From Chitinivibrionales bacterium (GTDB taxonomy: Bacteria > Fibrobacterota > Chitinivibrionia > Chitinivibrionales > FEN-1185): a stretch of DNA of 64,000 nt. The position numbers were made by a program, and so were the translations under genes. The DNA is taken from NCBI GenBank assembly GCA_035516255.1, contig DATJAL010000052.1, positions 124,001 to 188,000 of the forward strand. The letters run 5' to 3'. The notes beneath the pieces were generated by a model. The model was not told the origin of the DNA and searched no databases. It saw nothing but the letters and a program-made list of their open reading frames with translations. Of the stretch, positions 58,118 through 64,000 are shown in pieces. Numbering within the stretch: position 1 is the stretch's first letter; each line of letters begins with the position of its first letter.

Positions 58118-58724
58118 AAGGGCTCCTTGCGAAAGGTGAGGGCGTGATGGAAGGGCATGGTGGTTTCCGGATGAGAATACAGGTTGTAAACTAATAAATA
58201 GAAGGAGGCGGGGCAAGAAATGGGATTACAGTGTCATTGCGAGGAGCCGCAGGCGACGAAGCAATCTCCGGAAAAGAAAATAAAATTACGGCGGGATTCG
58301 CTGGATGCCGGGAAGAGACGGTGGAGACGGAGCAGGATGAACCAGGGCCTTCGTTGCACACAGGACAATACGGTGAATACTTTTGTTTATTTAGAAGCCC
58401 AACGTGCGCGCAACTGGGTGCCGTGGCCGAATTGCCGACATGACGGCTGCGAACGAAGCGAAGACGCCGACGGAGCCACCAGACAGGCCATTGCAGCACT
58501 TTAACTGTTAGGTGCTGTTTGTAAACCACCTACCTTAGTGCAAGTCTTTTTTTCGGCGGCGGTCTTCGGCTTTTCGGTTTTTGTATTTGCAGCCCCCGTT
58601 TTTCAATTTCTTCCGGCGGCGGCTTTTCTTGTTTCTTTGAAGCGCTGTTTTCAGTGGTTAAAAAAAAATATAATAATTTGAGCGTTAAAACGTATTTTGC
58701 TTCCATTATTCCATCTATTAGGAT
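58118..58724. other. Intergenic region with a dispersed repeat (58232-58268)
   Basis: GTCATTGCGAGGAGCCGCAG then GCGACGAAGCAATCTC (58233-58268) belongs to the TCATTGCGAGGAGC...GAAGCAATC repeat type found scattered in many bacterial genomes; ATTGC and GCAAT are its complementary ends. Short frames here translate to the familiar artefact peptide SPAAPRNDT. An AT-rich stretch near 58660-58715 may hold the promoter of the next gene. No coding sequence seen. Confidence 0.6.
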
Positions 58725-59030
58725 ATGCCGGAAATGCCAAATCTGAGACGTCGTGCTCGAAAAACATTAGATTTTTGTTTTGCCATTTATTTGGCCGTTC
58801 TTCTCGGTGTGGTTGCACCTGCGCACCATCACAAGGATGGCGCGGAACATAGCGACTGCGCAGTTTGCTTAATTTCACATCTGCCCATTATCGCACCATT
58901 AATAGTTTCAGTGATTCTGATTGTCGTTAGGTTATTTGTTAAACCCGTCCGGCTTCCTGAAATCATATCCTCTCGTATACCTCATGCTTTCCATTCCCGC
59001 GCTCCTCCCGCATTGATTCCGGTTTCTTAA
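58725..59030 (+). CDS. Small His/Cys-rich membrane protein (DUF2946-like)
   Basis: A 101-residue protein with a membrane segment (FCFAIYLAVLLGVVAPA), then a metal-binding-looking stretch HHHKDGAEHSDCAVCLISH, and a second membrane segment (IIAPLIVSVILIVVRLFV). The arrangement of His cluster and CxxC after the first helix resembles DUF2946 proteins, which are often encoded beside TonB-dependent receptors for copper or other metals. Start 58725 has a weak, close AGGA; ATG 58734 is an alternative. The TonB-dependent receptor lies downstream on the same strand. Confidence 0.6.
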   Translation: MPEMPNLRRRARKTLDFCFAIYLAVLLGVVAPAHHHKDGAEHSDCAVCLISHLPIIAPLIVSVILIVVRLFVKPVRLPEIISSRIPHAFHSRAPPALIPVS

Positions 59031-59075
59031 AACACTTCGCTTTAATTTGCTGACCAGCCAGGGAGACAACGAGGG

Positions 59076-59128
59076 TACTCCACGTCCAAATTATGCATGC
59101 AAAACGTATGCATAATTCAGATGGAGTA
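59076..59128. promoter_or_regulatory. 53-bp nested palindrome upstream of the TonB receptor
   Basis: TACTCCA (59076-59082) and TGGAGTA (59122-59128) enclose ATTATGCAT (59090-59098) and ATGCATAAT (59108-59116), both pairs perfect. It could be a dual operator for a metal-responsive repressor, an RNA hairpin or a small mobile repeat. It does not match the Fur-box consensus. Confidence 0.55.
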
Positions 59129-59206
59129 TCTAATATCTAAGTGAACAGGCCAAACCCTCCCGGGCTTTCAGTGGTAATTTATTTAACCATGCGACTCGGG
59201 AGGCAT

Positions 59207-61414
59207 ATGAAATTCAATTTAAAATTATTGATATATCAACTACGCGTATGCGGTTATTCGGGTAATGTTTTGTCCAGTATTCCCGTGCGTAAATCATTTT
59301 TCTTCCTGATAACCGTTCTCTTTACTTTTTCATATTTTGTGCAAGCGCAAACCATGCCGGATTCCTCATCGCAAAAAATACGCTTGCTCGATACGATGAC
59401 TGTTACAGCCCAGAAACTCAACGAAGCCCGGTTGGACCGCCTCGGAGCCATGTCAAATGCCATCCAACCCACCAGCGTGGTTACGCCCGAGGCCATCTTT
59501 CTTAAAAACGCGGATGATTTCACTCAAGCGGTAACGTCGGAACCGGGCGTCTGTGTCTTGACCGGATGCAGTTCATGCGGCTTCAAACAGATTCAGATCA
59601 ATGGTTTGGGCGCAAATCACACAACCGTGCTTGTCGACGGGCTTCCGATTTACACGCCGGTAACGAGTTTTTACGGCGTTGACGCGCTCACCACCGCCGG
59701 AGTGGCCGACATCGACATTTCACGTGGTCCCGGAGCCTCGCTTCTTGCGCCGGGCGCCATGGGAGGAGCCATGGATGTTCGCTTTCGCAACCCTACTCGT
59801 AACGCCATCACGGCCGATGCCGCAATTGGCAATAACGACTGGAACCATCTTTCATTCTCGGGAACAGCCGTAGTAGACAGCGCGAAACTCGGCATCCTTG
59901 TTGCAGGGCATCACTTTTATGAAGGACAATGGGATGCAGACGGAAACGGCGTTTCGGAGTCACCGTCTCTCAACGACGAAAGCGCCTTGTTGAGGCTCAA
60001 CGGTCTCATCGGAGAAAACTGGTCGTGGAATTTACGGTATATGCACAGCTACTCTGAGGTTTTCGGCGCGGCCGTGACGTCAAATCATATGGGCGCCGCG
60101 GTTGGACCGGCGGATTCGATTCCGTTGTATGTTGATGGAGATGTACGAAAAGCCTTTATAGGAAATCCTCAGGACCTTATCGAATGGGTCCAAACAACGC
60201 GAGACGAAGCCGCGGGCGCGTTGACCTGGGATTCGCCACACCTTGGCACATGGCAATTACGGGCGGGCCTCGCCAGCCAATCGCAAGTCTCCGAATACGA
60301 AGGAGGCGCGGACTACAACAATGCGGACAACAATGTCGTGGGGGATTTGCGCTGGATGGGAACTGCCTGGGCCAACACCCTTACACTGGGCGTTGACGCC
60401 AACATTGAAAGAATGGCGTCGCAATCCCACTACTATTATCAAGTCCTTGGAATTACTCCTGATTCCTATAACGCAACTTTCGGGGGCGTTTACGCGCAGG
60501 ACGTGTGGAACTTCGGACAGGAGCGAGACTTGTCCCTGGCGCTGCGCCTGGACGATATCGATGTTAATTGGATCAACAAGCCCGGCGAAAAAATCAACAA
60601 TTTCATAGCCGCGCCCAGGGCCAGCTTGCGTTGGGAATTCATTGAAGGTCTAACCGGGCGCTTGTCCGCCGGTTTAGGCTGGCGGGCGCCGCTCACTTTT
60701 TTTGAACTGGATCACGGTCTTTTGAATAACGGATTCGACATAGGCGTTACCAAGTTGGAGAAAGCCGAAGGAGCGGGAGGCTCTCTCGCGTTCGATAGGT
60801 CGCAGTGGGAGATAACCGCGGGAGCGTACGTTACCCAGGTTTCGGATCTCGAATTCGTTGACAATAGCCCCTCTTTGCCGCGTCCTGTCTTGCGTAACGA
60901 TTCCACTCAACTCACTTTTTTAGATGTTGACGCCGAAGCCTCTTATATTCCCTGGAATTGGCTCAAGTTGGGCGTCGGGGTCGAACACCAGCAGATTCCC
61001 GATCAGTATAAAGCCGTTGAATTGGTGGCGGCCATGGAAACCGAGGTCAACGGACGCGTTGAAATGAATTACGGACCGGCCTCACTTTCCGGAGACGTGG
61101 CATGGACCGCGCCGCGCGACTTGACGCCTTACGGCTACGCGGGTCAATACAATGTTTTTGAAAACGGCGCGGCCAGCGATCCCAAACTCACACAAGCGCC
61201 TGGTTTTTTCGTGGTCAATATGAAGGCGACCTGGAAGCTCCTTCCCGTTTTGGACCTTTACGCGGGAGCCGAGAACCTGCTTAACTACACCCAGACAGGT
61301 TCGGCCCACGACGATCCACATTATTGGGACGACCAGGGCAATTTCAACACCTCGCATATCTGGGGACCGTTGCGTGGAAGGCAAATGTATGTCGGGTTGC
61401 GTTTGAAGACATAA
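59207..61414 (+). CDS. TonB-dependent outer-membrane receptor, probable metal ligand
   Basis: A 735-residue receptor. A signal segment (SFFFLITVLFTFSYFVQAQ) precedes a TonB box region (LLDTMTVTAQKL). The plug domain has INGLGANHTTVLVDGLPIYT and IDISRGPGASLLAPGAMGG, and a 22-strand barrel ends with a standard aromatic-rich terminal strand (GRQMYVGLRL). The plug carries an unusual Cys cluster CVLTGCSSCG (Cys116, 121, 124). Start chosen at ATG 59207 with GGGAGG close upstream; a GTG at 59141 would lengthen the leader. The neighbouring His/Cys protein and the TonB2-type genes suggest import of a metal ion or metal complex. Confidence 0.88.
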   Translation: MKFNLKLLIYQLRVCGYSGNVLSSIPVRKSFFFLITVLFTFSYFVQAQTMPDSSSQKIRLLDTMTVTAQKLNEARLDRLGAMSNAIQPTSVVTPEAIFLKNADDFTQAVTSEPGVCVLTGCSSCGFKQIQINGLGANHTTVLVDGLPIYTPVTSFYGVDALTTAGVADIDISRGPGASLLAPGAMGGAMDVRFRNPTRNAITADAAIGNNDWNHLSFSGTAVVDSAKLGILVAGHHFYEGQWDADGNGVSESPSLNDESALLRLNGLIGENWSWNLRYMHSYSEVFGAAVTSNHMGAAVGPADSIPLYVDGDVRKAFIGNPQDLIEWVQTTRDEAAGALTWDSPHLGTWQLRAGLASQSQVSEYEGGADYNNADNNVVGDLRWMGTAWANTLTLGVDANIERMASQSHYYYQVLGITPDSYNATFGGVYAQDVWNFGQERDLSLALRLDDIDVNWINKPGEKINNFIAAPRASLRWEFIEGLTGRLSAGLGWRAPLTFFELDHGLLNNGFDIGVTKLEKAEGAGGSLAFDRSQWEITAGAYVTQVSDLEFVDNSPSLPRPVLRNDSTQLTFLDVDAEASYIPWNWLKLGVGVEHQQIPDQYKAVELVAAMETEVNGRVEMNYGPASLSGDVAWTAPRDLTPYGYAGQYNVFENGAASDPKLTQAPGFFVVNMKATWKLLPVLDLYAGAENLLNYTQTGSAHDDPHYWDDQGNFNTSHIWGPLRGRQMYVGLRLKT

Positions 61415-61433
61415 CTCAAGCCTGTAGAATGAT

Positions 61434-61466
61434 GGGCCTGCCAAAAAAAAACGGCAGGCCCTTCAT
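61434..61466 (+). terminator. Hairpin terminator after the TonB receptor
   Basis: GGGCCTGCC (61434-61442) and GGCAGGCCC (61453-61461) form a perfect 9-bp stem with an A-rich 10-base loop. Only TTCATT follows, so termination may be partial and allow read-through into the energising genes. Confidence 0.7.
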
Positions 61467-61522
61467 TCGGTTTCGGCACAATTTTCTCAAAGAAAAAAGA
61501 TTCTTGAATGGAGAGTAATTTC

Positions 61523-62356
61523 ATGAAAAAAATGGTTCACCAAGTCACATTTGCCGCGGCATTAGCGTGCTGCGTATGTGCGGCTCTCGTTTCCGCCCAG
61601 ACCGCGCCGCCGTCGATCGACGACGATATCGCGCGGCTGCGCAAGGAGCTGATTCAATCGCAGGTTGACGCCGAGCGAGTTGGCCAGGAAATGCTAAAAG
61701 ACAAACAAGACTTCGATACCTACCGCGCCCGAACCGCACAACGCCTGGCCCAAACGCAAAGCGAGCTCGATACACTGAAATCTGAGACCATCGTCGTTTC
61801 GCGAGCCGATGCCGCGCTCGCAGCCCAGATCAACGGCGTGCTTGCTCAACGCCATGAGATTGAACTGTCGCAGGACGAATTTCGCCAGAAACTGATCTCC
61901 TTTTGCAACAGCGTGACTCCTGCGGTAAAGAGGCTGCCGCCGCTTATTATGGCGCCCACGCTCTCCGGCCTTTACCTTCTTATCAATGACCTGACAACCA
62001 AGTCGGTCGACGTCGTCGAAGGCAGCACACGTCTGGTACAGATCCTTAACAAACTCGACGAGGCCGGTTCCGGCATCCAAGTTTCTCAGGAAAGCTCGCC
62101 GGCGCCGGACATACCCGGCATGGTTTACCGGTTGCGCATCGGGACAATATTCGAGGCGGTGGTCGACACAAAGGGTGAGAAAAGCGCCGTATTCACTGGC
62201 TGGGGAGACGATGGAGCTCCGCATTGGAGGAATTTGAATTCTCCGAAAACCGCTATGGCGATTCTTCAGGCGGTTAACGTCCGCGAAGGAAGATCATTGC
62301 CCGTGTTCGTGAACCTTCCCCTTGGAGCCGGTGCGGGAAAGGAAGGTGCAAAGTGA
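61523..62356 (+). CDS. DUF3450 periplasmic coiled-coil protein of a TonB2-type system
   Basis: A 277-residue exported protein. The signal peptide (VTFAAALACCVCAALVSAQ) is followed by a long coiled coil (DDDIARLRKELIQSQVDAER, through about residue 105) and a compact C-terminal domain (PGMVYRLRIGTIFEAVVDTK, WRNLNSPKTAMAILQAVNVR). This matches DUF3450 proteins, encoded at the head of TonB2/ExbB2 clusters. ATG 61523 has GGAGAG seven bases upstream. It overlaps the next gene by four bases (GTGA). Confidence 0.85.
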   Translation: MKKMVHQVTFAAALACCVCAALVSAQTAPPSIDDDIARLRKELIQSQVDAERVGQEMLKDKQDFDTYRARTAQRLAQTQSELDTLKSETIVVSRADAALAAQINGVLAQRHEIELSQDEFRQKLISFCNSVTPAVKRLPPLIMAPTLSGLYLLINDLTTKSVDVVEGSTRLVQILNKLDEAGSGIQVSQESSPAPDIPGMVYRLRIGTIFEAVVDTKGEKSAVFTGWGDDGAPHWRNLNSPKTAMAILQAVNVREGRSLPVFVNLPLGAGAGKEGAK

Positions 62357-63819
62357 AAAAGACGTTTTTTGTAATTCTGTGGCTGACGGTGACGGCATCT
62401 TTTGCAGGCAAAGCCGAAAAGATCCAAGCGATAAAGGAAACGGAACGCAAAGAACTCCAGAACGCCCTCGACAAATCGCGCGATAGTCTGCAAGAGCTCG
62501 TTACAAAGCAATACGCGTTCGAGCAGCAGGCCGTGGAAATGAAAGAGGCAAACAAGGATGAATTCGACAAGCTGCACGAACAACAGGACCGCATGGAGAC
62601 GGAACTCGCGCGCATCAAGGAAGAAAAACTCAATCGTGAACAGTCGCTTGCAGATGAAATAAAGAACCTCGAAGCGAAAAAGGAGGAGTGGACCTACCTG
62701 CAAAACCAAATAAAAGACATCTTTCAGAAAGACGCCGATGGTCTGCTTGAAGCCTTTCCGCTCGACAAGGAACTTCGACGTGCCGAACTCGAAAAGATCC
62801 GGGCGTCCTTGAGCGAACGCCATTCGCCCACGGCGGCGTTTGGAGCTTTTGTCAACTATAGGCTGGCATGGTTGGCCCTCGGGGATTCCATATCCCTCGC
62901 CAAGGCCGTGGTCTTGCCTGAAGATGGCAGCCCAAAGCAACTGACCATCTCGCGATTCGGTAACGTGTTCGGGTACGGCATCGACCCGGCCGCGGGAACG
63001 TGCTACTATTTGCGCCAAACGGGAAGACTTGGATCTGATCGATTTTCGGTTGAAAAAATTGCGGCTCCACAACTCGCTACTAAGTTGACCGAACAGTTTC
63101 CCAAGTGGCTTTCCACCGGCCGGATTACCGGAGACGTGCTGATGGAAGTGATGCAAAATGACCAGGCCCGCATGCTCATTGCGGGAAAAAGACAATCCAC
63201 TGGTCTTGCGTTGTACGAATCGTTCGCCAAGGGCGGTTGGGTCATGATTCCCATGCTCATGTTACCCTTCTGGGTGCTGTACCTGATGGTCGTTAAAATC
63301 GCGCAATATGCAGGGCGGGGCAGCCTACTTAAGAAGCAATACGTCACAGCAATGAAGTTCCTTGAAAAGAAAGAGTTTAACAGCGCACTGGCATGGGCAA
63401 AGACTTGTAAGAGAGGGGTGATGGCCCGCATAGTTGCCGCAAGCCTTGAACGGCAAAGCCAGGGTAGGCAAACGGGTGAACGAGCGGCCTACGAAATTCT
63501 AACCCTTGAAACTCCGCCCTTACGCCGTCACCTCAATACATTAGCGGTGATCGCGGGGGCGGCTCCGCTGCTTGGATTACTTGGAACCATTAGCGGCATG
63601 ATAACTCTGTTCGCGGCGGTCACGCACTTTGGAACCGGAGACCCCAAATTTCTCGCGGGCGGAATATCCGAGGCGCTTATCACTGCGAAAACAGGGTTGG
63701 CTATTGCCATTCCCGTTCTGTTTATTCACGATCTTCTTCGTGCAGCAAAGGATCGTCTTATGGCAGACCTGGAGAACGATACGATTGCCGTACTCAACGC
63801 AGTGTATCCCGAGGAATAG
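62353..63819 (+). CDS. MotA/TolQ/ExbB family proton-channel protein with long periplasmic domain (TtpC-like)
   Basis: A 488-residue inner-membrane protein. The N-terminal signal segment leads into a coiled coil (ETERKELQNALDKSRDSL to about residue 130) and a globular periplasmic part. Three membrane helices follow: about 293-312 (WVMIPMLMLPFWVLYLMVV), 397-425 (VIAGAAPLLGLLGTISGMI) and 436-458 (ISEALITAKTGLAIAIPVL). The last two carry the ExbB/TolQ proton-channel signature. This architecture is that of TtpC, which bridges the channel and the DUF3450 protein in TonB2 systems of vibrios. GTG start overlapping the upstream stop. Confidence 0.88.
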   Translation: MKKTFFVILWLTVTASFAGKAEKIQAIKETERKELQNALDKSRDSLQELVTKQYAFEQQAVEMKEANKDEFDKLHEQQDRMETELARIKEEKLNREQSLADEIKNLEAKKEEWTYLQNQIKDIFQKDADGLLEAFPLDKELRRAELEKIRASLSERHSPTAAFGAFVNYRLAWLALGDSISLAKAVVLPEDGSPKQLTISRFGNVFGYGIDPAAGTCYYLRQTGRLGSDRFSVEKIAAPQLATKLTEQFPKWLSTGRITGDVLMEVMQNDQARMLIAGKRQSTGLALYESFAKGGWVMIPMLMLPFWVLYLMVVKIAQYAGRGSLLKKQYVTAMKFLEKKEFNSALAWAKTCKRGVMARIVAASLERQSQGRQTGERAAYEILTLETPPLRRHLNTLAVIAGAAPLLGLLGTISGMITLFAAVTHFGTGDPKFLAGGISEALITAKTGLAIAIPVLFIHDLLRAAKDRLMADLENDTIAVLNAVYPEE

Positions 63820-63822
63820 GAA

Positions 63823-64000
63823 GTGTTCACACCGTTTCTAAAACTATTCTATGAAGGCGGATGGGTGCTGTTTCCCATCTTTGCCGTGTCGGTTGTAGTG
63901 TGGCACATCGTTTTCGGAAAGCTAATCCGCTTTGCACATCTACGCACGGCGCGCAAACGGGTCCATGCCATACTTGTGACGCAAAACGTTGAACCGACGA
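63823..64000 (+). CDS. ExbB-like proton-channel protein, 3' end beyond the window
   Basis: GTG 63823, preceded by AGGAA and three bases after the upstream stop, opens FTPFLKLFYEGGWVLFPIFA followed by VSVVVWHIVFGKLIRFAHLR. This is the first membrane helix and N-terminus of a short ExbB/TolQ protein, the expected second channel subunit of a TonB2 cluster. Genes for ExbD and TonB probably follow outside the window. Confidence 0.85.
   Translation, partial: MFTPFLKLFYEGGWVLFPIFAVSVVVWHIVFGKLIRFAHLRTARKRVHAILVTQNVEPT

Follow-up and report, generated by a model that had tools for sequence, protein, structure and literature searches.

The window, a 64,000-nucleotide stretch of DNA from a soil Fibrobacterota bacterium (contig C52, positions 124001-188000; G000:C52:124001-188000), carried at its downstream edge a gene cluster whose assignment to metal import with a linked motor was well supported and is held with high confidence. 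The operon was probably a self-contained, TonB2-powered outer-membrane importer of zinc, either as free Zn2+ or as a weak zinc chelate. Zinc was favoured because of genome linkage and ligand chemistry. Counted in its favour were the complete TonB2-type gene set, the pairing of a plug CxxC with a barrel ExxH motif, the linkage of a small His/Cys protein to zinc operons, a paralogue of that protein beside ZnuA and ZnuB on contig C6 of the same genome, and a second receptor and motor locus in genome G020.

The locus is ordinary in kind and new in combination. Outer-membrane uptake of scarce zinc or manganese in Gram-negative bacteria is known for few receptors, and the CxxC-plug receptor family has been in print only since 2026. 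The locus contributes a concrete candidate metal site (CxxC plus ExxH), a receptor encoded together with a whole motor, and a small marker protein of zinc operons for which no assigned function was found. It also exposes a conflict between zinc, indicated by genome linkage, and manganese, indicated by regulation.

Operon layout and TonB2-type motor

All genes of the cluster lay on the forward strand. The first encoded a small DUF2946-like His/Cys membrane protein of 101 aa (58725-59030), and was followed by genes for a CxxC-plug TonB-dependent receptor (TBDR; 59207-61414), a DUF3450 protein that is the TtpB counterpart (61508-62356; PF11932, 4.7e-11), and a TtpC-like protein with an N-terminal coiled coil and a C-terminal ExbB-like domain (62353-63819; PF01618 MotA_ExbB, 1.4e-24). 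These four genes had been named in the initial annotation and were confirmed at these positions, with Pfam support where a profile matched. The next gene, encoding an ExbB-ExbD fusion of 345 aa, was cut by the window edge (63823-64000). Extension of the contig supplied the full fusion gene (L002 6324-7361; PF01618 and PF02472 in one protein), a TonB gene 3' of it (L002 7368-8003; TonB_C) and a TPR protein gene 3' of TonB (L002 8000-8947; TPR). The cluster's own energising complex, as predicted, was thus recovered as a complete TonB2-type set. The expected exbD and tonB were both present, with a TPR protein in addition, but no regulator gene adjoined the operon. Neither ZnuABC nor zur genes nor a recognised Zur box lay beside it, a point against zinc, and the upstream region contained no known operator.

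From the DUF3450 gene onward, adjacent genes overlapped by 4 bases or were 3-6 bases apart, a spacing that fits an operon. The nearest named record was a 'Fibrobacteres bacterium' MAG (L008, the sister genome), whose receptor was 93% identical. All seven genes were kept there in the same order, including the ExbB-ExbD fusion, which is therefore not a sequencing error. A search of genome contigs returned the sister genome only, and a search of viral sequences gave no match.

The motor genes showed the TonB2-type order DUF3450/TtpB, TtpC, ExbB, ExbD, TonB and TPR/TtpD, with ExbB and ExbD fused. The TonB2 operon of Vibrio (TtpB2-TtpC2-ExbB2-ExbD2-TonB2-TtpD2) has six matching functions in matching order, and its first and last products, TtpB2 and TtpD2, are essential for siderophore-iron uptake (PMC6957404). 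The window operon differed in having ExbB and ExbD as one protein and in being led by a receptor gene. Furthermore, Vibrio TonB2 serves siderophore iron (PMC6957404).

DUF3450 matches were found in 146 of the 168 Fibrobacterota genomes searched. Most of the 17 Fibrobacterota clusters read, in a comparison that used rough gene calls and missed some parts, had TonB2-type order with separate ExbB and ExbD. A 341-aa protein at L129 that resembled a further ExbB-ExbD fusion was rejected, as Pfam matched the ExbD domain only; by domain matches, the fusion was confined to the window's genus among the clusters read. Upstream of the TonB2-type clusters at L130, L133 and L136, a gene for a TBDR-like protein was accompanied by one for a lipoprotein-like protein (CDFHGPWEYYPEE...), and these three loci suggest that Fibrobacterota TonB2-type motors are often encoded with their cognate receptor.

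In G020, which belongs to another family of the same order, a distant CxxC receptor was followed by Pfam-confirmed DUF3450, TtpC, ExbB, ExbD, TonB and TPR genes; the small protein was absent from this locus. A CxxC receptor with a TtpC-type motor was therefore present in two divergent Fibrobacterota lineages. The window genome had only one DUF3450 match, but it encoded seven plug-domain receptors and more than one or two TonB-like proteins, so the motor may also serve receptors other than the one in the window.

Plug CxxC, barrel ExxH and related receptors

The receptor ORF (59141-61414) matched the Pfam Plug (PF07715, 1.4e-15) and barrel (PF00593, 1.1e-14) profiles, both over cut-off. Translation probably started at the ATG at 59207, with a GGGAGG Shine-Dalgarno sequence upstream, and the TonB box was DTMTVTA. 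The plug motif CVLTGCSSCG was encoded at 59552-59581, with the CxxC codons at 59567-59569 and 59576-59578, and was identical in the sister receptor. The CxxC was invariant in all eight aligned receptors, six of which were only about 22-25% identical to the window receptor, and among the seven plug-domain receptors of the genome it occurred in the window receptor only. The plug CxxC is therefore more than chance. The initial annotation had reported the motif correctly and called it unusual for a TonB-dependent plug; it proved to be a family trait that is already in print (PMC13217887) rather than a local oddity.

After the WRAP sequence of the barrel, the receptor carried FFELDH (60698-60715), with Glu at 60704-60706 and His at 60713-60715. 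The corresponding pattern [FY]xExxH after the barrel RAP box was present in 11 of 11 CxxC-plug receptors read and in 0 of 14 TBDRs without CxxC (Fisher p about 2e-7, uncorrected for shared ancestry and with the motif found and tested on the same small, related set). A distant Fibrobacterota receptor, L142, kept both motifs, its plug reading QQCNNCNF. The strict pairing suggests that the plug CxxC and the barrel ExxH form a candidate Cys2 plus Glu/His metal site. An HMMER alignment to BtuB, as we read it, placed the CxxC in the plug loop following 'PGV', which in BtuB is part of the substrate-binding surface. An AlphaFold2 model of the receptor, built from two sequences, had a pLDDT of 25.5 and was discarded.

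By its domains and motif, the receptor is assigned to the barely described CQNC-type (CxxC-plug) TBDR family. Membership was scored as C-x-x-C in the plug immediately ahead of a conserved NGL; the literal CQNC was absent, and CSSC occupied the alignment column of the relatives' CQNC or CQSC. Bacteroidota relatives on plasmid records had an invariant CxxC, as NCQNCG or NCQSCG. One Parabacteroides distasonis record (L017 5600-7893) had a CxxC receptor gene broken in several frames, as a pseudogene or through sequencing errors; intact relatives exist. CQNC-type TBDRs were named in a paper of May 2026, which described a sparse distribution (PMC13217887), and no other paper on the CQNC motif was found in the literature. 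The authors suggested Mn2+ coordination and left the function to be determined (PMC13217887).

In Lysobacterales, Sphingomonadales and Opitutales, these receptors are reported to have a periplasmic thioredoxin-fold neighbour, and for Proteobacteria the paper proposes that this partner reduces the CQNC motif (PMC13217887). The genes of the window operon included none for a thioredoxin-fold protein; since the synteny was reported for three orders, it is not required of every member. That proposal fits a reading in which the disulfide made by the plug cysteines is structural or redox-sensed, the ligand is a non-metal compound or a siderophore, and the adjacent motor is general-purpose. The frequency of TtpC-type motors in Fibrobacterota and the service of Vibrio TonB2 to iron siderophores (PMC6957404) point the same way. 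We judged this reading very unlikely, as it leaves unexplained both the strict CxxC/ExxH pairing and the linkage of the small protein to zinc operons. Among homologues, none was found with a proven non-metal ligand, nor with any proven ligand.

A metal site built on a plug cysteine has a precedent in OprC, where the solved structure shows copper between Cys143 and Met147 of the plug and His323 and Met325 of the barrel; on structure comparison, this site and that of zinc in ZnuD are 2.8 angstroms apart (PMC8610252). The likeness would lie in the plug Cys and barrel residues forming a metal site close to that of ZnuD. OprC has CxxxM in the plug and HxM in the barrel and binds copper, whereas the window receptor has CVLTGCSSCGF and FFELDH and does not match the OprC pattern. 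ZnuD of Neisseria and ZnuK and ZnuL of Caulobacter (PMC4176598) share with the window receptor its proposed role, the TonB-dependent passage of zinc through the outer membrane. They are Zur-regulated, and no CxxC plug or linked motor was found described for them in a comparison made by description only.

The plug Cys of OprC, which binds copper (PMC8610252), also speaks for the reading that the cargo is a different thiophilic metal (Cu, Ni or Co) or is complexed with a metallophore such as a peptide chelate, the small protein being only a general metal-stress partner. Some distant TBDRs without CxxC lie ahead of genes for a cation transporter, for a P-type ATPase of the heavy-metal kind or for an HMA protein, which would agree with it. 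Nevertheless, this reading was considered quite unlikely: no copper or nickel gene adjoined any CxxC receptor read, and another TBDR of this genome, on contig C6, has its own ExbB, ExbD and TonB and adjoins a CbiM/CbiQ-like cobalt/nickel system.

In Stenotrophomonas maltophilia, an mntR mutation derepressed the CQNC-type receptor gene orf2357, and joint manganese and iron limitation induced it (PMC13217887). The two receptors have in common a plug CxxC, membership of the TBDRs and a link to transition-metal homeostasis; the window receptor differs in its CSSC, its small His/Cys protein and TtpC-type motor partners and the missing thioredoxin-fold protein, and its genome linkage points to zinc and not to manganese. 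The one family member whose regulation has been studied thus answers to MntR and to manganese and iron limitation, not to zinc (PMC13217887), and was counted against zinc. Because this relative is MntR-regulated, the main rival is an identical machine that carries manganese, or manganese and iron, as proposed for S. maltophilia; we rate it as improbable. In addition to the regulation, binding proteins of the A-1 type (ZnuA family), which are discussed below, carry either zinc or manganese. On the other side, cysteine ligation is unusual for Mn2+, and the operons linked to the small protein had zinc-typical features.

Small His/Cys protein and zinc operons

The small protein had HHH at residues 34-36, H42, C45 and C48, and RAPP at its C-terminus, and the protein was conserved in the sister genome. 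Its score with PF11162 (DUF2946) was 18.9 bits, against 17.8 for the sister protein and 22.0 for the C6 paralogue, all below the curated cut-off of 23.7 bits; 11 of 17 aligned family members matched at E <= 0.1, the best at 4.9e-6. The protein was therefore classed, by a score below the Pfam cut-off, as DUF2946-like, that is, related to this family. Caulobacter CC2720 (DUF2946) resembles it as a small membrane or periplasmic protein of a zinc-responsive operon with a weak profile match. CC2720, however, heads the Zur-activated czrCBA zinc-efflux operon (PMC4176598), whereas the linkage of the window family is to uptake.

A profile of the small protein (A3) had matches in 46 of 168 Fibrobacterota genomes. 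At least 25 of the 49 matches were 0.2-2.2 kb from a same-strand ZnuA-family gene, many of them representing one Fibrobacter operon type and hence not independent; by our own estimate, given genomes of about 3-4 Mb that usually have one or two ZnuA genes each, chance would produce less than one case. By tblastn, ZnuA and/or ZnuB occurred in 17 of 20 small-protein neighbourhoods fetched across Fibrobacterota. One Fibrobacter operon comprised a Fur-family regulator, ZnuA, ZnuC, ZnuB, a 144-aa protein, the small protein, a TBDR and a COG0523/CobW GTPase, and its ZnuA had the His-rich loop EEEHHHEHGEE.... Zinc limitation is typically accompanied by ZnuA proteins with such a loop and by COG0523 proteins, which argues against manganese. 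In the Fibrobacter zinc operons at L078, L080, L082-L084 and L086, the gene for the 144-aa protein (YDIDISRMSGTMVYGQVYQM...CVIQDALACCSQG) separated that of ZnuB from that of the small protein.

On contig C6 of the window genome, a small-protein paralogue headed an operon in which a porin-like protein is encoded together with ZnuA and ZnuB. For the C6 binding protein, AztC, a zinc model, was the best match at 111.5 bits, ahead of a manganese model at 89.7 bits; both scores were below cut-off, and their order again speaks for zinc rather than manganese. Opposite this operon, at L010 1-5392 (G000:C6), the CbiM/CbiQ-like cobalt/nickel transporter genes adjoined the gene of a TBDR (PGLMVTQHSGAGKANQFLLRGFNLDHG...) that has ExbB, ExbD and TonB of its own; this is a second receptor of metal type with a linked motor.

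In Bacteroidota, a small HxH...RAPP protein was encoded immediately 5' of the CxxC receptor at L012, L013 and L143, and in a Parabacteroides locus a CxxC receptor was accompanied by a Fur-like gene, a small HHH/CPVC protein, a further TBDR and DUF4625 proteins. The small protein and the CxxC receptor therefore co-occur repeatedly in two phyla, although roughly half of the receptors with CxxC that were read had no small protein.

The proposal of metal import in the initial annotation was thus supported by the zinc-operon linkage of the small protein, by the invariant CxxC with the barrel ExxH, and by the MntR-controlled relative (PMC13217887). As for the metal, given there as copper, zinc, mercury or a chelate, zinc emerged as the best candidate and nothing pointed to copper or mercury, while manganese has to be added as a real rival.

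Leader RNA and proposed mechanism

The leader between the small-protein and receptor genes (59031-59206; L008 9884-10069) was predicted, separately for each genome, to form two hairpins. Hairpin 1 (59073-59131) had a counterpart at the matching place in the sister genome. In hairpin 2 (59156-59203), CCTCCCG (59156-59162) would pair with CGGGAGG (59197-59203) and cover the Shine-Dalgarno sequence of the receptor. The whole leader was predicted to fold more stably than shuffled sequences, with a z of -3.45 (sister -2.94), whereas hairpin 2 alone had an unremarkable -1.53. An Rfam search of the leader gave no match, and a DNA search of the 168 Fibrobacterota genomes gave a clear match in the sister only. 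The predicted fold makes a translational switch by Shine-Dalgarno masking a possible hypothesis.

A AACGTATTTT-like element was seen about 20-30 bases 5' of the small-protein genes at four loci (window 58689-58698; L010 upstream of 10041, G000:C6:20557-20572; L071; L008). At least 15 matches to the pattern were listed in the genome against 11 for a reversed-pattern control, and because of these similar counts the element is only a lead; it may be a promoter element, an operator or chance. No palindromic operator common to the small-protein operons was found.

In the zinc importer that we favour, zinc would be bound between the plug CxxC and the Glu and His that are conserved behind the barrel RAP box, and the DTMTVTA box of the receptor would be engaged by the TonB C-terminus. 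Proton-motive force would be supplied through the ExbB-ExbD fusion and the second ExbB-like domain on TtpC, and assembly of the complex across the periplasm would fall to the DUF3450 and TPR proteins, as it does in the Vibrio TonB2 system. The small His/Cys protein would be made together with the importer, probably under metal scarcity, and would probably bind zinc or pass it on, either in the periplasm or at the inner membrane. Uptake into the cell would then use the ZnuAB importer encoded elsewhere in the genome.

A joint reading of all parts is tentative and rather doubtful. By this reading, receptors with a CxxC plug and ExxH would be a distinct zinc-specific TBDT class with a Cys2-His/Glu site, which in Fibrobacterota would have a private TonB2-type motor (ExbB and ExbD fused in the window's genus). 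In part of the range, an HHH/CxxC/RAPP zinc hand-over protein would mark zinc-uptake operons, and the Shine-Dalgarno-masking leader would tune receptor synthesis.

At L144, L145, L151 and L152, distant TBDRs without CxxC had a small Cys- or Pro-ending protein encoded upstream, and in three of these four loci the gene downstream of the TBDR encoded a cation transporter, a P-type ATPase or a protein of the HMA type. These loci are possibly a hint of a wider class that combines a small protein with a metal receptor.
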